Positions 2,579 to 33,889 of a stretch of 34,119 nt of DNA are shown one piece after another. Below the pieces are notes generated by a model. The model had not been told where the DNA came from, did not search any database, and saw only the letters and a program-made list of their open reading frames with translations. Source of the DNA: Chloroflexota bacterium (GTDB lineage Bacteria; Chloroflexota; Anaerolineae; Epilineales; SHYO01); assembly GCA_009692745.1 (NCBI GenBank), contig SHYO01000030.1, positions 1 to 34,119 on the forward strand, in the 5' to 3' direction. A program made the translations under genes and the position numbers. Every line of letters begins with the position of its first letter. Position 1 is the stretch's first letter.

Positions 2579-5470
2579 TTAGACACGCGAAACCTCCTCC
2601 AGCGCGTCCGCGATAGCCTGTTCCAGCGACATAGCCTGCCCGGCCGCCCAGGCGGCCTCGAAGGCGGCTTCGCCCAGTTGGGCACGGGCGGCGGCCAGGT
2701 CCTGCTCGTAATTCACGGGATGGGAGACGACACTGTTGGCATTTGGTAAGGCTACGGCGGCGGCGCATAAACGGACGGCGCTGGCGGCGCGACCCTGGGC
2801 TACTGCTATTCCGGCGATATTCCTGAGCAGATAGGCATGCGTAGCATTCACCTCCATCTCACGAGCCATAACCAGGCTCTCCGTAAATAGCGCAGCGGCC
2901 CGGCGGTGGTCGCCCTCTAGCCAGGCGGTCTCGCCCAATCTGGCCAGGAAGCCGTAAATATACGACTTTGTCCCCAAATCCTGGGCCAGTGCCAGCCCCT
3001 CCCTGAAGTGCGCGGCGGCGGCGCTGTAATCACCCTCCCTCAGTGGCACACATCCCAAATAATGGAGCGTGACCATGACACTAAATTTACTGCCTATTTT
3101 CCGGGCGAGCACCAGCCTATGGGTAAAGCGCTGGCGGGCAGCGGCGTAATCCCCTTGCTCTAAATCCAATATCCCCAGGTAACTGATAACGATGGATGCA
3201 GGATTTGTGTCGCCGATTTTTTGGAAGCCCGCCATACTCTCCTCAAGCCGGGCGCGGGCTGTCACGGGGTCCCCCCTGGTCATGGCTAAAACCCCCTCTA
3301 ACATGAAGGACTCGGCCAAGCCCCCGGCATCTCCGGCGGCACGGCAAAGCGCCTGGCCTTCGGTATACCGTTGGCCGGCGGCTGCGAGATGGTTTTGGTT
3401 GAATTCCAGCCGGCCCAGCCAGAACAGGGCGCGGGCCAGCCCGCGTTGGTCGCCCACTTCGCGCCAGATGGCGATACTCTCTTCACACCGGGAGCGTTGG
3501 GCAGCGCTATCTCCTTCGGCCAGTACCCCGGCAGCCTGGAGCGCTTTGGCGCGCGCGGCCGTGCGCCCCAGCGCTATGGTCTGCGCCAGAATCTCTTCCA
3601 GCCAGCGGCATATTTCGCTGATTTCGCCGCGCCAGTACGACCAGAACTGCGCCAGCGCCCCCGCCAGCCGTAAGCCCGCCTCGGTCGCCACGGACCATTG
3701 CAGCGCCGTTCGCAAATTATCTTGCTCGGTCTGCAGCCGTTTGGACCAGGCCATCTGCTGTGGGCCGTGTAGCTGGATCTCGCCCTCCTCGGCCAGCTTC
3801 AGGAAGTACGTCAGGTGGCGGTCGCGCACAGGGTCACCTTCGCCAGACTCCAGCAGCCTGTCGCGGGCATACTGGCGGATGGTCTCCAACAGGCGGTAGC
3901 GGGTCTCATCACCCTGATCTGCTACTCCCACCAGGGATTTATCTACCAGGCGCGTGAGCAAGTCCAGAATCTCGTTGGACAAGATTGAATCTTGTCCTAC
4001 ATTAATGTCGGCACACACCACCTCCGCCGCCTCCAGCGTCCAGCCACCTGCAAACACCGATAGGCGTCTAAACAGAATGCGCTCTTCCTCCGAGAGCAGG
4101 TTGTAGCTCCAATCGATCAGCGCCGCCAGGGTCTGCTGGCGCGGCAGGGCGGTGCGGCTGCCCCCCGTCAGCAGACGGAAGCGGTCGTCCAGCCGGTTGG
4201 CGATTTGCTCCACCGACATGGCGCGCACCCGGGCGGCCGCCAGCTCGATGGCCAGGGGGATGCCATCCAGCCGGTGGCAGATTTGGGCGACGGCCGGCGC
4301 ATTCTGGTTGGTCACGGTGAAGTCTGGCTTGACCGTGGTAGCCCGCTCGATGAACAGCCGCACCGCCTCATATTGGGAGAGGGCCGCGACGGCGGACAAG
4401 TGTTGCGGGTCAGGTAACGAAAGGGAGGGCACGTGAAAGGGCACTTCCCCGGCAATGCCCAGCGCCTCGCGGCTGGTGGCCAGCAGCTTCAAGTGGGGGC
4501 AAGCCCGCAGCAGCGTCTCGGCCACCTGGGCGCAGGCTGCCACCAGATGCTCGCAATTGTCCAGGATCAGCAATAAGGATTTGGCGCGCAGGTAGTCCGT
4601 TACCGTCGCCAGCAGCGGGCGGCCAGACTCTTCGCGCACACCCAGCACGGCAGCCACGGCCTGGGGCGCCAGCGCCGGGTCGGATATGGGCGCCAGTTCT
4701 ACCAGCCAGACGCCGTCGGGGAAGGTATCCAACAGATCGGCTGCCACTTGCAGGGAGAGGCGGGTCTTGCCGGTACCCCCCACCCCGGTGAGGGTCAGCA
4801 GATGGGTCTTGGTCAATAGCCGCTTGACCTCGGCCATCTCCTTCTCCCGGCCCACGAAGCTGGTGAGCTGCACCGGCAGGTTGTGGGGGAAGGCGTCCAA
4901 TGTGCGCAGCGCCGGGAAGTCGGATGGCAAGTCGGGCGCAACCAACTGGAAGATCTGCTCAGGGCGCACCAGATCGCGCAGGCGGCGCTCGCCCAGGTCC
5001 TGCAGGGTGACGTCAGCGGGCAGGTTGTCCCGCACCAATTCCTGGGTCGCGGCCGAGAGCAGCGTCTGGCCGCCGTGCCCGGCAGCCATCAGGCGCGCTA
5101 CCCGGCTGAGCGTCGCGCCGAAGTAGTCGCCGTCACGCACATCGGCCGCGCCGGTGTGCAGAGCCGCGCGCACTTTGATGGCCGCCGGGCGGGGCAACCC
5201 CGCCCCTGCGGTCCAATCCTCGGCGGTGAGGGCACGCTGGATGGCGAGGGCGGCGGCCAGGGCGGGCAGGGCCGTGGGGAAGGCGGCGCAGAACTCGTCG
5301 CCCACGGTCTTGAAGACATAGCCGTCGTGGCTCTCGATGGTACTGCGCACGATAGTGTCGTGGCGCGCCAGGGCGGTTTTCATGGCCTCGGGGTGCTGCT
5401 GCCACAGCCGCGTACTCCCTTCGATGTCGCTGAACAGGAAGGTGACCGTGCCGCTGGGTAAATCAGACAT
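2579..5470 (-). CDS. Class III cyclase-like / NB-ARC-type ATPase / TPR regulator, copy A
   Basis: A 963-residue multidomain protein. Residues 5-180 form a class III nucleotide cyclase homology domain, with metal-binding Asp15 (FSDIEGSTRLW) and Asp58 (KTVGDEF). The transition-state Asn of the NxxxR motif is Ser122 (SRVAR, Arg126 kept), so catalytic activity is doubtful. Residues 200-480 form an AfsR/LuxR-like STAND ATPase with P-loop GVGGTGKT (229-236), Walker B LLLILDN (299-305) and the motif GIPLAIELAAARV. The C-terminal half (about 570-950) is TPR-like helical repeats. No DNA-binding domain is obvious, so this is probably a signalling switch. The ATG is preceded by GAGGT. It is paralogous to the gene at 5826-8762 and carries a palindromic in-frame insert at 3977-3997. 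Family assignment is firm; the signal and output are unknown. Confidence 0.85.
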   Translation of the reverse strand: MSDLPSGTVTFLFSDIEGSTRLWQQHPEAMKTALARHDTIVRSTIESHDGYVFKTVGDEFCAAFPTALPALAAALAIQRALTAEDWTAGAGLPRPAAIKVRAALHTGAADVRDGDYFGATLSRVARLMAAGHGGQTLLSAATQELVRDNLPADVTLQDLGERRLRDLVRPEQIFQLVAPDLPSDFPALRTLDAFPHNLPVQLTSFVGREKEMAEVKRLLTKTHLLTLTGVGGTGKTRLSLQVAADLLDTFPDGVWLVELAPISDPALAPQAVAAVLGVREESGRPLLATVTDYLRAKSLLLILDNCEHLVAACAQVAETLLRACPHLKLLATSREALGIAGEVPFHVPSLSLPDPQHLSAVAALSQYEAVRLFIERATTVKPDFTVTNQNAPAVAQICHRLDGIPLAIELAAARVRAMSVEQIANRLDDRFRLLTGGSRTALPRQQTLAALIDWSYNLLSEEERILFRRLSVFAGGWTLEAAEVVCADINVGQDSILSNEILDLLTRLVDKSLVGVADQGDETRYRLLETIRQYARDRLLESGEGDPVRDRHLTYFLKLAEEGEIQLHGPQQMAWSKRLQTEQDNLRTALQWSVATEAGLRLAGALAQFWSYWRGEISEICRWLEEILAQTIALGRTAARAKALQAAGVLAEGDSAAQRSRCEESIAIWREVGDQRGLARALFWLGRLEFNQNHLAAAGQRYTEGQALCRAAGDAGGLAESFMLEGVLAMTRGDPVTARARLEESMAGFQKIGDTNPASIVISYLGILDLEQGDYAAARQRFTHRLVLARKIGSKFSVMVTLHYLGCVPLREGDYSAAAAHFREGLALAQDLGTKSYIYGFLARLGETAWLEGDHRRAAALFTESLVMAREMEVNATHAYLLRNIAGIAVAQGRAASAVRLCAAAVALPNANSVVSHPVNYEQDLAAARAQLGEAAFEAAWAAGQAMSLEQAIADALEEVSRV
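3977..3997. repeat. Perfect palindrome inserted in frame in regulator copy A
   Basis: The 10-bp arms GGACAAGATT and AATCTTGTCC flank a single G. On the coding (minus) strand the palindrome and its edge encode GQDSILS. The surrounding peptide (DINVGQDS) interrupts the winged-helix-like segment after the ATPase core where relatives pass more directly into EVLDLLTRLVDKSL. The same sequence, expanded, occurs at the equivalent site of copy B. Confidence 0.75.
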
Positions 5471-5576: not shown

Positions 5577-5620
5577 CTTAACGGCCCAATCATTGCCCAC
5601 CACCCAGGATTGATGAAAAT

Positions 5621-5828
5621 TAAGAAATTAAGTACGACACCTGAATTCCTGCCGCAGACAAAGTTGAATTTAATTGCGATACTACATCTTAAAAGATGTA
5701 GCTTACAAGCAGTAGCGCTCTAAACTACATCTTTATGCTGTGCCTTACACAGCGGATGTAGTGCTTGCAATAAAAGAAGCGTTGCTAGTGCGCAGAGCGC
5801 CTTCAACGGTGTCCGAACTAATTTCTTA
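5621..5828. mobile_element. MITE-like element with imperfect terminal inverted repeats
   Basis: The 355 bp between the two regulator genes holds an AT-richer, non-coding segment of about 208 bp. Its ends are inverted copies: the left end begins TAAGAAATTA and closes with ACACC, the right end reads GGTGT then TAATTTCTTA, matching over about 21 bp with a few differences, and weaker similarity extends 6-7 bp further out on both sides. If TA is the target duplication, the ends would suit an IS630/Tc1-type MITE. The right end supplies the stop codon of regulator copy B (5826-5828). No transposase is present. Internal nested palindromes are listed separately. Confidence 0.6.
5682..5762. repeat. Four alternating inverted copies of an ACTACATCTT motif
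   Basis: Arm 1 CTACATCTT (5682-5690), arm 2 AAGATGTAG (5693-5701), arm 3 ACTACATCTT (5724-5733) and arm 4 GATGTAGT (5755-5762). Arm 1 pairs perfectly with 2, arm 2 perfectly with 3, and arm 3 (8 bp) with 4; the 3-4 hairpin is extended by an inner GCTGTG/CACAGC stem (5737-5742 with 5748-5753). Pairings 1-2 plus 3-4 exclude pairing 2-3, so a transcript could switch between two folds. Confidence 0.7.
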
Positions 5829-8762
5829 AACTTCAGCAACCGGTGGGGCAGAGTCTTGAACCTCCTCAAGGGCAGAGTCGATAGCCTGCTCCAGCGTCAT
5901 CGCCTGCCCTGCCGCCCAGGCGGCCTCAAAGGCAGCGTCGCCCAGTTGGGCGCGGGCAGTGGCCAGGTCTTGCTCGTAGTTAATGGGGAAGGCCACGAGT
6001 TGGTCCACATAGGCAGTCTTGTTGGCCGCGGCCGCAGCGCACAACTGGACGGCTCTGGCCGCTGCCCCCTGGGCGATTGCCATCCCGGCGACACTCCTGA
6101 GCAGGTGAGTGATGGTAAAGTGTTTCTCCCTCCCCCGCGCCAACTCCAAGCTCTCGGCGTACAATGCCGCCGCCCGGCGCTGATTGCCCTCCAACCAGGC
6201 CAACTCTCCGCATCTACCAGTGAACCAGGAGATAAAACCTTTGTCGCCTAATTCCCGCGCCAGGGCCAGTCCTTCCATGAAGTGCGCGCTGGCCGTGCTG
6301 TATGCCCCTTGCCGCAGCGCCACGTGCCCCAATTCCAGGAGCATTTGCAAGATATGAAGACTGCTGTGCATTTCCCGGCCGATCTCCAGCCTTTGGCTAA
6401 AGTGCCGGTAGGCTGAGGGGTAATCCCCTTCCTCTCGATCCAGCCGCCCCAGGCGGGCATTCAGAGCGGCGGCCCAAGCTCGGTCCCCAATCTGCTGGAG
6501 ACCAGCTACACCCTGCTCGTAGATGGCGCGGGCTGCCGCGTAATCCCCCACTTCCATTGCCAGATCTCCCTCGCCTATCGCGCAGAAGGCTGTGCCCCAA
6601 TGGTCCCCCACCGCCCGAGAGAGCGCCTGGCTTTCGGCGAACAGCTTGCCGGCTGCTGCCAGATTATTTTGACGAAATTCCAGATACCCTAGCCAGAACT
6701 GGGCATGGGCCAGCATGCGTTGATCGCCTACCTCGCGCGCGATGGCAATGCTCTCTGCATATCGGGAGCGGCTGGCGGCGCTGTACCCCCCCTGGATTAG
6801 GATCCCGGCGCCCCATAAAGCCCTGGCCCGCGCGGCCGTGCGCCCCTGGGCCGGATTTTGCGCCAGGGCCTCTTCCAGCCAGCCCAGCCCCTCGCGCCAA
6901 TCGGTATGCACCCACCAGAAGTATGCCAGCGCCCCCACCAGACGCAGCCCCTGCTCAGAGGCCAGCGACCAGCGCAGGCCCGTTCGCAAATTATCGTGCT
7001 CGGTCTCCAGCCGTTTCATCCAGGCCATCTGCTGCGGCCCGCGCAGCCCCATATCACCCGCCTCGGCCAGTTGCAGGAAATAGGTGACGTGTTGGTTGCG
7101 CACCTGGTCCCCCTTGCCCGACTCCAGCAGCCTGTCCCGCGCATACTGCCGGATGGTCTCCAATAGGCGGTAGCGCCCGGCGCTATCCTGCGCTTCGATC
7201 ACCACCAGGGATTTGTCTACCAGGTGGTTGAGCAGGTCCAAAATCTCGTAGGACAAGACGACATCCCTTGGATGTCCGGAATCTTGTCCTACATTAATGT
7301 CGGCACACACCGCCTCGGCCGCCTCCAGTGTCCAGCCACCGGCGAAGACCGAGAGACGGCGCAGCAGCATCCGCTCCGGCCCGGTCAGCAAGTTGTAGCT
7401 CCAGTCGATCAACGCCGCCAGGGTCTGCTGCCGGGGCAAGGCGGTGCGGCTGCCCCCCGTCAACAGGCGGAAACGGTCATCCAGGCGCCGCGCAATCAGC
7501 TCCACCGGCATGGTGCGCACCCGCGCCGCCGCCAGCTCGATGGCCAGCGGGATGCCGTCCAGCCGGTGGCAGATTTGCGCCACCGCCGCCGCGTTCTGAT
7601 CATTCACGCTGAACTCTGCCCGCGCCGCCACCGCCCGGTCGATGAAGAGTTTAACCGCTTCGTACTGGGTCAGGGCTGCCAGCGGCGGCAGATGCGCCGG
7701 ATCGGGCGCCGCCAGCGAAGGCACATGCAGTGTCATCTCCCCCTGGATGCCCAATCCCTCGCGGCTGCTGGCCAGAATCTTGACCTGGGGACAGGCGCGC
7801 AGGATGGTCTCGGCCAGCCGGGCGCAGGCCGCGATCAGGTGCTCGCAGTTGTCCAGGATCAAGAGCAGGTGTTTGGCGCGCAGATAATCCAGCAAGGATT
7901 TTTCCAGCGGCTGTCCGGGGGCTTCCGGCACGCCCAACACACTGGCGATGGCCTGTGGGACCAGGTGCGGATCGGCCAGGGGGGCGAACTCCACCAGCCA
8001 GACGCCGTCCGGGTAGGCGTCCAGCAAGTCGGCGCCAGCCTGCAGCGAGAGGCGCGTCTTGCCCGTGCCGCCCACCCCTGTAAGCGTCAGCAGGTGTGTG
8101 CTGGGGAGCAGCCGCTTGATATCGGCCATCTCCTTCTCACGCCCTATGAAACTGGTCAACTGCACCGGCAGGTTGTGGGGGAAGGCGTCCAATGTGCGCA
8201 GCGACGGGAAGTCAGCCGGTAGGTCCGGGGCAACCAATTGGAAGATCTGCTCTGGGCGCACCAAATCCCGCAAGCGGCGCTCGCCCAGGTCCAGCAGGGT
8301 CACGCCCGCCGGCAGCGCGTCCTGCACCAGTACCTGGGTGGTATGAGAGAGCAAGGTCTGGCCGCCGTGCCCGGCCGCCATCAGGCGCGCTACCCTGCTG
8401 AGGGTCGCGCCAAAGTAGTCGCCGTCCCGCACATCGGCCGCGCCGGTGTGCAGAGCCGCGCGCACTTTGATGGCCGCCGGGCGGGGCAACCCCGCCCCTG
8501 CGGTCCAATCCTCGGCGGTGAGGGCACGCTGGATGGCGAGGGCGGCGGCCAGGGCGGCAGGGGCGGCATCGAAAGCGGCGCAGAACTCGTCGCCCACAGT
8601 TTTGAAGACATAGCCACTGTGGGCCTCGATGGTGGCGCGCAGCAGAGCATCGTGACGCGCCAGGGCGGCCTGCATGGCCTCAGGGTGCGCCTGCCACAGC
8701 CTGGTGCTGCCCTCGATGTCGGTAAAGAGGAAGGTAACTGTCCCCCTGGGTAAATTAGGCAT
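5826..8762 (-). CDS. Class III cyclase-like / NB-ARC-type ATPase / TPR regulator, copy B
   Basis: A 978-residue paralog of the 2579-5470 product with the same domain order: cyclase homology domain (Asp15 in FTDIEGSTRLW, Asp58 in KTVGDEF, again Ser122 for the catalytic Asn), STAND ATPase (P-loop GVGGTGKT, 229-236; Walker B LLLILDN) and C-terminal TPR-like repeats. The ATG follows GAGGAG. The two genes match most closely at the 5' end, including 130 bp of perfect identity (8428-8557 versus 5136-5265), and diverge strongly in the TPR region, as expected if the sensing repeats differ in ligand or partner. The final residues and stop codon come from the inverted end of the MITE-like element, so the original C-terminus may have been changed. 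It is separately transcribed from its own promoter. Confidence 0.85.
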   Translation of the reverse strand: MPNLPRGTVTFLFTDIEGSTRLWQAHPEAMQAALARHDALLRATIEAHSGYVFKTVGDEFCAAFDAAPAALAAALAIQRALTAEDWTAGAGLPRPAAIKVRAALHTGAADVRDGDYFGATLSRVARLMAAGHGGQTLLSHTTQVLVQDALPAGVTLLDLGERRLRDLVRPEQIFQLVAPDLPADFPSLRTLDAFPHNLPVQLTSFIGREKEMADIKRLLPSTHLLTLTGVGGTGKTRLSLQAGADLLDAYPDGVWLVEFAPLADPHLVPQAIASVLGVPEAPGQPLEKSLLDYLRAKHLLLILDNCEHLIAACARLAETILRACPQVKILASSREGLGIQGEMTLHVPSLAAPDPAHLPPLAALTQYEAVKLFIDRAVAARAEFSVNDQNAAAVAQICHRLDGIPLAIELAAARVRTMPVELIARRLDDRFRLLTGGSRTALPRQQTLAALIDWSYNLLTGPERMLLRRLSVFAGGWTLEAAEAVCADINVGQDSGHPRDVVLSYEILDLLNHLVDKSLVVIEAQDSAGRYRLLETIRQYARDRLLESGKGDQVRNQHVTYFLQLAEAGDMGLRGPQQMAWMKRLETEHDNLRTGLRWSLASEQGLRLVGALAYFWWVHTDWREGLGWLEEALAQNPAQGRTAARARALWGAGILIQGGYSAASRSRYAESIAIAREVGDQRMLAHAQFWLGYLEFRQNNLAAAGKLFAESQALSRAVGDHWGTAFCAIGEGDLAMEVGDYAAARAIYEQGVAGLQQIGDRAWAAALNARLGRLDREEGDYPSAYRHFSQRLEIGREMHSSLHILQMLLELGHVALRQGAYSTASAHFMEGLALARELGDKGFISWFTGRCGELAWLEGNQRRAAALYAESLELARGREKHFTITHLLRSVAGMAIAQGAAARAVQLCAAAAANKTAYVDQLVAFPINYEQDLATARAQLGDAAFEAAWAAGQAMTLEQAIDSALEEVQDSAPPVAEV
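7251..7289. repeat. Nested palindrome inserted in frame in regulator copy B
   Basis: The outer arms GGACAAGA (7251-7258) and TCTTGTCC (7282-7289) match those of the palindrome in copy A. Between them sits a second palindrome ACATCC (7261-7266) / GGATGT (7270-7275), which lengthens the protein in frame (minus-strand peptide GQDSGHPRDVVLS) relative to copy A. Confidence 0.7.
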
Positions 8763-30673: not shown

Positions 30674-32157
30674 TATATTCCAGGCTTAAAATTGCGATGA
30701 TTGCCTCTGAATGTGCGCCTTATGCCAAAACAGGGGGGCTGGCGGATGTGGTAGGAGCCTTGCCAAAAGCGTTACGCGCCTTGGGTCACGAGGTGATCGT
30801 GATTATGCCCAAGTATGCCTCCATCAATACGCAGAAGTATATGATACACCCTTTCCTGAGCCCTATGGGCGTATGGATGGGGAATGCCCAGGAATGGTGC
30901 GCAGTACACGCCGCGACCAACGATGGCGTGCCGGTATATTTTATTGAATCCAACAAGTATTTCGACCGGTACGGGCTGTACAATGACGCAAGTTTCAATG
31001 ATTACCAGGATAACCCACGGCGCTTCGGGTTTTTAACCCGCGCGGGGTTACAACTGTGCCACGATATAGGCTTCGCGCCAGATGTTGTACATAGTCACGA
31101 TTGGCAGGCGGCGTTGGCCCCGGCCTATCTCAAAATCTGGCATTGGAATGATCCGGTGCTGGGTGGGGCGGCCAGCTTGCTGACCATCCATAATATCGGC
31201 TACCAGGGCGTCTACAGTGCAGCATCTTATGACTATCTAGGCCTGCAGCCGGGGAATTTTACCGCAGATAAATTCGAGGATCACGGCCGGATTAACTTCC
31301 TCAAGGGGGGCATCGCTTATGCGGATAGAGTGAATACGGTCAGCCCCACCTACGCGCAGGAGACCCGCACGCCGGCATATGCTTACGGGTTGGCCCCTTA
31401 TTTAAATGACAAGGGGGAGAACTATATCGGGATTCTCAACGGTGTAGACTATACTGAATGGAACCCGGCGGTGGATACGTTGATTCCGGCGCGGTATACG
31501 CCCTCTGATATGTCCGGTAAGGCCCTGTGTAAAGAGGCGTTGCAGCGCCGCTTCGGTTTGGAGGTAAACCCGGACATTCCTATCTTGGGGATAGTGACCC
31601 GCCTGGCGGAGCAGAAAGGTATGCATTTGCTGGCCGCAGCGATCGGAGACATTGTCAGCCAGATGCAGCTACAGGTTGTGATTTTGGGTTCCGGAGATAA
31701 GCACTTGGAAACTGCTTTTGGCGCGCTGCCTGCCCGATATACGGGTCGCATCGGCAGCTTTATCGGGTATAATAACGAGTTGGCGCATTGGATCGAGGCC
31801 GGCTCAGACTTCTTTATCATGCCTTCGCTGTACGAACCCTGTGGCCTGAACCAGATATATTCCCTGAAATACGGCACGTTGCCGATTGTCAGGGCTACCG
31901 GGGGATTGGAGGATACCGTGCAACAGTACGACGAAGCCAGCGGCGAGGGCACCGGTTTCAAGTTTTGGGAGCCGAGCAGCCGGGCTATCTATTATGCTGT
32001 CGGCTGGGCGGTCAGCACCTATTTCGACCGCAGGCAGCACATCGAAAAGATGATCCATAAAGCTATGGTGCAGAATTATTCCTGGGATCAGAGCGCCCTA
32101 CTATACGTCCAGGCTTATCAAAAGGCATTATCCCACAAAAAAGGAGAAAATCGATGA
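30670..32157 (+). CDS. glgA: Glycogen/starch synthase (GT5)
   Basis: A 495-residue ADP-glucose:1,4-alpha-glucan glucosyltransferase in glycogen synthesis, a GT-B fold of family GT5. The N-terminal glucosyl-nucleotide site is ASECAPYAKTGGLADVVG; other family motifs are VVHSHDWQAAL, LTIHNIGYQG, NTVSPTYAQE, GILNGVDYTEWNP, VTRLAEQKG and the C-terminal MPSLYEPCGLNQIYSLKYGT with the catalytic-site Glu. The start is a TTG overlapping the methyltransferase stop; the next ATG would cut into the conserved first strand. The last codons (KALSHKKGENR) lie within the 5' end of the tandem repeat unit described below. The stop overlaps the next ATG (ATGA). Confidence 0.93.
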   Translation: MIYSRLKIAMIASECAPYAKTGGLADVVGALPKALRALGHEVIVIMPKYASINTQKYMIHPFLSPMGVWMGNAQEWCAVHAATNDGVPVYFIESNKYFDRYGLYNDASFNDYQDNPRRFGFLTRAGLQLCHDIGFAPDVVHSHDWQAALAPAYLKIWHWNDPVLGGAASLLTIHNIGYQGVYSAASYDYLGLQPGNFTADKFEDHGRINFLKGGIAYADRVNTVSPTYAQETRTPAYAYGLAPYLNDKGENYIGILNGVDYTEWNPAVDTLIPARYTPSDMSGKALCKEALQRRFGLEVNPDIPILGIVTRLAEQKGMHLLAAAIGDIVSQMQLQVVILGSGDKHLETAFGALPARYTGRIGSFIGYNNELAHWIEAGSDFFIMPSLYEPCGLNQIYSLKYGTLPIVRATGGLEDTVQQYDEASGEGTGFKFWEPSSRAIYYAVGWAVSTYFDRRQHIEKMIHKAMVQNYSWDQSALLYVQAYQKALSHKKGENR

Positions 32158-33005
32158 TCAATTTCCCACGCTCTACCTTTACCTGGAAGCACAACCATTG
32201 GCGGCCCGATCCGTATTACAAATATCCCGGCTTTGTAGGTAAGCCTGGTGAAGTTTATCAGGTGCGATTTAACCTGGTAGGGAGCTGCGTCATCCAGGAT
32301 GAGAAACGGGGCACTACAGCCGAGCTGTTCGTCAGTGCGCCTTGCCGTACTGAATATACCATCGCCTACTGGAATCTATTTCAGGTGCCCAGTAACGAGT
32401 TCCGTTTTGCCTTCAGCCGAGAAAATCGGCTGACCATCGGAAAGCGGCCCAGCTATGAACAGGAAACAGCGCCACGCGCCAAGTTGACCGATACATTTTC
32501 GGATTACAAAATCGATATCCGCACCTTTTCGGATGTGACCGAGCTGAAGACTGGGCAGGAGATTGTAGCGGCCACCCTGGCCAACGATATGCTGAATGCC
32601 CGCTCCACCTACCGCGATGCAGAGCGCGGCCTGACTGTATCGGTCGAGTATCCAATAAATCTGATCAACCTGAACGAGCCGACCGGGGAGTTCCAGGTCT
32701 GTACCGGACCTCTGATTGTGCCTGACCTGGCGACTTGGGATGGGCATGATGTGACGCGGGTTTTGCTGGCCCATGTAGCGATTACGGCGTTTGATCGCGT
32801 GGAATTTATCCTGCGGCGGGAAGTGGAAGCAGCAGAATCGGAGCGGGAATGGTTGGATAAGCCGGTGGATCGTGACCGGTATGAGTTGTTAGACCCCAAT
32901 AACCGCCCACCCAATTACCCCCCGGCGCGCCCCAAGCCGACGGTTTATAACGAGGTGTGGGCCTTCCCGGCGACAAATGTGGTGATGCGGGCGCCAAACA
33001 AATAG
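32154..33005 (+). CDS. Unknown protein family, tandem copy 1
   Basis: A 283-residue soluble-looking protein with no signal peptide or membrane segment; I do not recognise the family. It opens MINFPRSTFT with several aromatic/His residues (WKHNHWRPDPYYKYP), has Cys44 (GSCVIQDEKRG), Cys64 (SAPCRTEYTIAYWN) and Cys183 (FQVCTGPLIVPDLATWDGHD), and a proline-rich end (NNRPPNYPPARPKP then YNEVWAFPATNV). The predicted strand-rich body suggests a beta-fold. It overlaps the glgA stop by 4 bases and has a GGAG ribosome site inside glgA, so it is probably translated with it. The position suggests a link to glycogen or a surface coat, but that is a guess. Confidence 0.8.
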   Translation: MINFPRSTFTWKHNHWRPDPYYKYPGFVGKPGEVYQVRFNLVGSCVIQDEKRGTTAELFVSAPCRTEYTIAYWNLFQVPSNEFRFAFSRENRLTIGKRPSYEQETAPRAKLTDTFSDYKIDIRTFSDVTELKTGQEIVAATLANDMLNARSTYRDAERGLTVSVEYPINLINLNEPTGEFQVCTGPLIVPDLATWDGHDVTRVLLAHVAITAFDRVEFILRREVEAAESEREWLDKPVDRDRYELLDPNNRPPNYPPARPKPTVYNEVWAFPATNVVMRAPNK

Positions 33006-33034: not shown

Positions 33035-33889
33035 ATGATCAATTTCCCACGCTCTACCTTCACCAGGATAATCCGCCCTTGGAAACGCGATCCGTACTAC
33101 AAATATCCAGGGGGATTTGTGGGTAAGCCCGGCGAAATCTACCCGGGACGAAGGAACCTCGTATCGAGCTGTGTCGTCCAGGATGAGAAACGGGGCACAT
33201 CGATGGAGATGTTTGTCAGTGCACCCTGCCGTACGGAATATACCATCGCTTATTGGAATCTGTTTCAAGTGCCCAGCAGCGAGTTTCGCTATGCTTTCAG
33301 CCGGGAGAATCGGCTGAGCATCGCCAGGCGGCCTAGTAATGAGCAGGAAGCGGTATCGCGCGCCAAGTTGACGGATACATTTTCGAGTTATAAGATCGAT
33401 ATCCGTACCTTCTCGGATGTGACCGAACTGAAAACCGGGTATGAAATTGTAGAGGCCACCCTGGCAAATGATGTGCTGAATGCCCGCTCCACCTACCGCG
33501 ATGTAGAGCGCGGCCTGACCGTATCGGTCGAGTATCCAATAAATCTGATCAACCTGAACGAGCCGACCGGGGAGTTCCAGGTCTGTACCGGACCTCTGAT
33601 TGTACCTGACCTGGCAACCTGGGATGGTCATGATGTGGACCGGGTTTTCCTGGCCCACGTGGCAATTGCGGATTTTGAGCGCGTGGAATTTATCCTGCGG
33701 CGAGAAGTGGAAGCCGCAGAATCGGAGCGGGAATGGTTGGACAAGCCAGTAGGTCGTGACCGATATGAACTGGCGGATCCTAATAACCGCCCGCCCAATT
33801 ACCCCCCGGCGCGCCCCAGGCCGACGGTTTATAATGAGGTGTGGGCGTTCCCGGCGACAAATGTGGTGATGCGGGCGCCAAATAAATAG
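33035..33889 (+). CDS. Unknown protein family, tandem copy 2
   Basis: A 284-residue paralog of copy 1, with the same start (MINFPRSTFT), cysteines and C-terminus. Identity is highest in the C-terminal half: the 33500-33600 stretch is almost unchanged at the DNA level, while the first 50 residues vary most (TRIIRPWKRDPYYKYPG). Differences are mostly single substitutions with no frameshift, so the copy appears to be under selection. A good GGAGG site precedes the ATG; 29 bp separate it from copy 1. Confidence 0.8.
   Translation: MINFPRSTFTRIIRPWKRDPYYKYPGGFVGKPGEIYPGRRNLVSSCVVQDEKRGTSMEMFVSAPCRTEYTIAYWNLFQVPSSEFRYAFSRENRLSIARRPSNEQEAVSRAKLTDTFSSYKIDIRTFSDVTELKTGYEIVEATLANDVLNARSTYRDVERGLTVSVEYPINLINLNEPTGEFQVCTGPLIVPDLATWDGHDVDRVFLAHVAIADFERVEFILRREVEAAESEREWLDKPVGRDRYELADPNNRPPNYPPARPRPTVYNEVWAFPATNVVMRAPNK

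Follow-up and report, generated by a model that had tools for sequence, protein, structure and literature searches.

We describe a short element in a 34,119-nucleotide contig of a Chloroflexota bacterium (this whole stretch is the window) that is quite probably non-autonomous, palindromic and MITE-like, and that inserts at the centres of palindromes, its own internal hairpins included, without duplicating or losing a base. Its mobility and landing rule are read from the comparison of copies with one another and with empty target sites, and on that reading we take the feature to be the folded remnant of a mobile element that lands by an unusual rule, and not an RNA switch.

The borders of the element were set by alignment of its copies (Table 1) and lie slightly beyond the 5621 to 5828 given in the preliminary description. 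The imperfect inverted ends noted there are present, but they extend over ~29 bp rather than ~21 bp, beginning with ATGAAR at the start and closing with YTTCAT at the finish; a repeat scan recovers them as inverted arms of 32 nt (5610-5641 and 5808-5839) that are 78% complementary. The same scan bears out the four alternating copies of an 8- to 10-bp motif, at 5681-5690, 5693-5701, 5724-5733, and 5755-5762, and the element has two internal hairpins of 20 bp. An inner GCTGTG/CACAGC stem, also described previously, does exist (5737-5742 and 5748-5753), but it is no family feature, being the insert ATGCTGTGCCTTACACAGCG private to the window copy; stretches resembling this insert, ATGCTGTG..CACAG, occur in other hairpins (C6 and C121). 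The element contains no transposase gene. Folding of positions 5612 to 5840 is strong as RNA (z = -7.5 on the plus strand and -5.5 on the minus strand) and as DNA (z = -6.6), with none of 200 shuffles equally stable, and these strong alternative foldings stem from the nested palindromic origin of the element.

Table 1. Positions of the element and associated features in the window
Feature	Position	Strand	Remarks
MITE-like element, ATGAAAATTAAG...CTTAAACTTCAG	5613..5836	.	224 bp; aligned with C214, C143, C130, C123
Left terminal inverted repeat, ATGAAAATTAAGAAATTAAGTACGACACC	5613..5641	+	(Near-)invariant across five copies; inverted-arm scan
Right terminal inverted repeat, reverse complement CTGAAGTTTAAGAAATTAGTTCGGACACC	5808..5836	-	Arm scan and copy alignment
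Terminal-repeat sequence of the window element, ATGAAGTTTAAGAAATTAGTTCGG			
Internal hairpin 1, CTACATCTT-AA-AAGATGTAG	5682..5701	.	One of 34 dispersed hairpins of CTACAYYTT-NN-AARRTGTAG type
Internal hairpin 2, ACTACATCTTT...GATGTAGT, centre interrupted	5724..5762	.	Unbroken in C214, C143, C130, C123
Private insert, ATGCTGTGCCTTACACAGCG, centre of hairpin 2	5735..5754	.	Net 17 bp; missing in four aligned copies
Left half of target palindrome, CCCACCACCCAGGATTG	5596..5612	+	Resembles left flanks of C94, C112, C61 (by eye)
Right half of target palindrome, CAACCGGTGGGGCAGAG	5837..5853	+	Imperfect complement of left flank; same at C169
TAA stop codon of upstream cyclase/AAA/TPR gene (5826-8762, -)	5826..5828	-	Inside element

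The genome of the window is a 4.37-Mb draft of 223 contigs, 83% complete and broken at repeats. A first search of it with the element returned 20 matching stretches, and further queries brought the count to ~15 loci, at which the copies are complete, partial, or nested. Of these copies, five (the window, C214, C143, C130, and C123) come close to full length, with a mean column identity of 83%. The pattern TTGATGAARNTTNA has 11 matches in this genome versus none for its reversed control. The copies have ATGAARNTT-like ends in common, and inward of these ends we distinguished at least three terminal types by eye; ~430 kb of the genome covered by inverted-repeat scan and BLAST contained no copy besides that of the window. 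The element is thus multi-copy and dispersed, and not the single copy without conserved pairing that the preliminary description had named as evidence against its reading.

Evidence for the landing rule comes from what lies on either side of the copies. At C214, C143, and C127, a CTACAT hairpin is split into halves by the element. When the flanks of C214, the inner C143 copy (C143in), C127, and C123 are joined, they match, across the junction, uninterrupted palindromes found elsewhere, with agreement at 33 of 33 bases for C143in and at 25 of 26 for C123, whose intact counterpart, GGACAATTTGCAAAATTGTCC, lies at C94. Zero bases were therefore duplicated and zero lost, and each of the four insertions parts precisely the two central bases of a palindrome that was already there. 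The TA target duplications anticipated previously are absent both from the flanks and from the empty-site comparison, so that we call the element MITE-like by anatomy. Target duplications are common in MITEs but not universal, and elements of the IS1182, IS110, and IS200/605 types can be without them.

Self-complementary flanks also occur at C160 (AGCGAATG on the left, CATTCGCT on the right), and the flanks of the window copy are less perfectly so (CCCAGGATTG and CAACCGGTGG). The target palindrome in the window is imperfect, with 6 of 10 positions paired (p ~0.02) and 3 of 8 once the three junction bases are set aside, and the draft genome yielded no unbroken copy of it. Across 14 two-ended sites of two genomes, which are not fully independent of one another, flank pairing exceeds that at random genomic sites (Fisher p ~1e-17); for these same interdependent sites the value is ~3e-10 without the three CTACAT targets and 7e-5 with the three bases next to the junction removed as well. 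At four two-ended sites (C130, C142, C94, and G299_L203), the flanks are hardly more palindromic than chance would give, if at all, perhaps from decay or truncation. Other palindromes are dispersed in the same genome: one family, GGACAATTTG..CAAAATTGTCCAACAT, occurs at C17 (L008), C94, C143, and C123, and its member at C17 encloses, at its centre again, a small GGAATCC/GGATTCC hairpin; another, GCTGAGTATACTCAGC / TACTCAGGGCTGAGTA, occurs at C1:8553-8696 (L143), C4:5339-5443 (L146), and C2:9748 (L144).

The internal hairpins belong to a family, CTACAYYTT-NN-AARRTGTAG, that is found at 34 places in the window's genome versus none for the reversed control pattern. Pairing is conserved in this family: 28 of the 34 stems are perfect, and they co-vary, with several base pair types interchanged. 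These hairpins sit both within and outside the element and also serve as its landing sites (C214, C143, and C127); because the internal hairpins are themselves targets, copies nest within copies, and such Russian-doll nests are found both in this genome and in a second, G299, considered below. At G000:C141:8112-8601 (L012), tandem units of ~120 bp, each with two CTACAT/CTACAC hairpins in inverted order, run up to the contig end.

The loop dinucleotides of the hairpins, GA and TC, are swapped between copies, which is what hairpin flipping during replication would give. Such inverted loops, which indicate hairpin inversion or template switching, could together with the almost perfect upkeep of the stems mean that the flank palindromes postdate insertion, fold-back template switching at a long hairpin having copied one flank onto the other. 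We consider this improbable: four of the target palindromes also exist in intact form elsewhere, agreeing in sequence with the joined flanks on both sides of the junction, and these empty sites, as far as sequence comparison can tell, largely contradict such an origin. Insertion into palindromes that already existed is the reading we retain.

Among 60 sampled relatives, a significant match was obtained only in the window's genome, and among 400 genomes of the phylum only one, the distant G299, matched, in the terminal repeat. The G299 element has the same right terminal sequence (87.5% over 32 nt) and occupies the middle of a 19-bp palindrome, its target (L163/L140); in 408 kb sampled from that genome we counted about ten further full or partial relatives. 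Three of the G299 copies (L203, L212, and L226) start midway in GGGCCGAT hairpins, the hairpin type found inside G299's own element copies. The internal sequence differs wholly between the two genomes, with the ends and the landing habit common to both, which suggests that the ends form the mobile portion and that the hairpins serve as cargo and target. Multiple copies, conserved ends, empty sites, and terminal homology with a distant genome jointly support the suggestion, offered earlier as one of two options, that the feature is a folded transposon relic.

Several wider searches yielded matches that we set aside. Those in G444 and G391 have no element around them and were judged chance, as were two matches of the exact end pattern in GTDB genome contigs, which have no inverted partner nearby. 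The exact end pattern was absent from viral contigs, in which a looser, G299-type end pattern has 10 matches, and a plasmid collection gave no match.

No transposase enclosed by matching ends was found in the stretches of the draft genome searched or in the 408-kb G299 sample, and we therefore infer mobilisation in trans. Two candidate mobilisers need to be weighed. The element could be a deletion derivative of an IS1634-family element, since at C112 the left end of a copy is followed by an IS1634 transposase fragment. That insertion sequence, however, starts at CTGACCTTTCGCTGAAAT, an end also seen without MITE sequence at C56, C73, and C168, and it lies inside the MITE at both C112 and C121; the two share no ends, a derivation of this kind is extremely unlikely, and the transposase beside C112 was ruled out as the mobiliser because the insertion sequence has ends of its own. 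The IS1634-family element, with ends CTGnCCwTTCGCTGAAAT, is found at ~195-880 of C112 (L010/L032) and 1-150 of C121 (L007), and fragments of it terminate contigs C56, C73, C168, C110, and C166. A second IS1634-like element, with the different end TCTTCTTTCGCGTAAAAAGAAAGTGAGAATGATGGAATTAG, occurs at the contig ends C94, C203, C211, and C219 (L040-L042, L036).

The second candidate is a Y1 (RAYT) transposase, which would make the element a REP/BIME-like repeat (REPIN), with the ATG..CAT arms as older carrier palindromes. The window's genome has three Y1 transposase genes, the hairpins of the element are paired in inverse orientation and have CTAC/GTAG at the base of their stems, the arms in G299 enclose GTAGGGGCCGAT units that also occur without arms, and REP dimers within long palindromes have been published (PMC3733652). 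The hairpins, however, have no one-sided GTAG or CGTC tag outside the stem, GTAG/CTAC being within the stem on both sides. In the stretches read, none of the three Y1 genes is flanked by a CTACAT hairpin; the one at C123 has another REP, GTAGGTGCGGTT.., at its flanks, and the REPINs of this RAYT are, by eye, without clear palindromic flanks. The part conserved in two genomes, moreover, is the terminal repeat and not the hairpin. We regard a REPIN origin as unlikely and keep to a MITE-like element presumably moved by another transposase in trans. The Y1 (RAYT-like) gene at C123:19795-20112 (L110) has GTAGGTGCGGTT-AACCGCAC repeats of the classical GTAG type on both sides; such paired repeats are dispersed in the genome, and one pair lies at the core of the nested C127 element.

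The element lies between two minus-strand genes, at 2579-5470 and 5826-8762, that encode cyclase-AAA-TPR proteins. These neighbours are paralogues, as stated in the preliminary description (71% identical over 972 aligned positions), and the element does supply the stop codon of one of them (Table 1). Joining the flanks of the window copy gives a C-terminus of ...PPVAILGGGQ and stop, versus the present ...PPVAEV and stop; insertion into the imperfect palindrome that lay at the 3' terminus of this cyclase/ATPase/TPR gene would thus have swapped AILGGGQ for AEV. Elsewhere in the window, two adjacent and very similar ORFs of ~284 codons (32154-33005 and 33035-33889) are apparently a recent tandem duplication.

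This setting also bears on the other option raised previously, an attenuator-like RNA switch in which mutually exclusive hairpins of the spacer transcript would control expression between the paralogous cyclase genes. The strong RNA folding and the four alternating motif copies are consistent with it, and so is the placing of both genes on one strand, which makes transcription of the spacer possible. Other copies, however, adjoin genes of unrelated function: we scanned the genes beside nine of them, and the families, where recognised, are phosphofructokinase, acetamidase, X-Pro peptidase, TIR domain, FGE-sulfatase, FAD oxidoreductase (DAO), and a sigma-70-like/BFN-domain protein. The window spacer contains no terminator-like site and no match to an Rfam family; the loop dinucleotides flip among copies, and the inner stem is an insert confined to the window copy. 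An attenuator is very unlikely on this evidence. A regulatory role is unnecessary to explain the structure of the element, although the element may have a local effect on the downstream mRNA or its stability.

The landing behaviour of the element has parallels among known systems. IS1272 and TnSha1 of the IS1182 family target hairpins with little sequence preference, cut blunt, leave no target duplication, and are found in both orientations (PMC4923244), and our element likewise seems to target hairpins by shape, blunt and without duplication. Unlike IS1272, which encodes a transposase and removes part of the target hairpin on insertion (PMC4923244), it is non-coding, has lost no hairpin bases at C214, C143in, C127, or C123, and carries its own targets. 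The likeness to IS1272 and the IS1182 family is a resemblance in behaviour and not family membership. The Russian-doll anatomy, with paired inverted hairpins in longer palindromes, recalls the REP dimers within palindromes of A. variabilis (GTAG-15), H. neapolitanus (CGTC-1), and T. roseum (GTAG-23) (PMC3733652). Those REPs, unlike the hairpins here, are tagged with GTAG or CGTC at one end, and no unlinked palindromes were found in two of the three genomes (PMC3733652), whereas uninterrupted targets exist here. Entry into dispersed palindromic repeats is also known for the insertion sequences that target REP/PU palindromes, IS1397, ISKpn1, IS621, ISPpu9/10, ISPsy8, and ISRm22 (PMC1525189); these are autonomous, belong to the families IS3, IS110, IS4, IS256, and IS5, and are specific to a REP sequence, and ISPsy8 at least makes a direct repeat (PMC1525189), unlike this element. 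With bacterial MITEs (ERIC, Nezha, Chunjie, QMITE) the element shares a length in the range of 70 to 300 bp, terminal inverted repeats, a non-coding interior with no transposase gene, dispersed copies, and strong folding (PMC10969869, PMC3733652), and it differs from bacterial MITEs in general by its lack of target duplication, its palindrome-centre insertion, and its self-nesting.

Much as in IS1272, a putative transposase supplied in trans would bind the ATGAAR ends, recognise hairpin or cruciform DNA by shape, cut blunt at the tip of the extruded structure, and insert the element there. We tentatively suggest, as a possibility that falls short of even odds, a phylum-wide transposition system that picks its targets by the shape of a hairpin or cruciform, places the element precisely at the tip with neither gain nor loss of bases, brings along target hairpins of its own, and so grows nested palindromes. 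Insertion of most mobile elements leaves a short target duplication, and structure-guided, loss-free insertion at a hairpin tip is known from few. The origin of composite palindromic repeats, such as REP-in-palindrome nests and BIME-like mosaics, would be explained by a self-nesting family with its target on board, and such a family provides a natural assay of cruciform extrusion in vivo.
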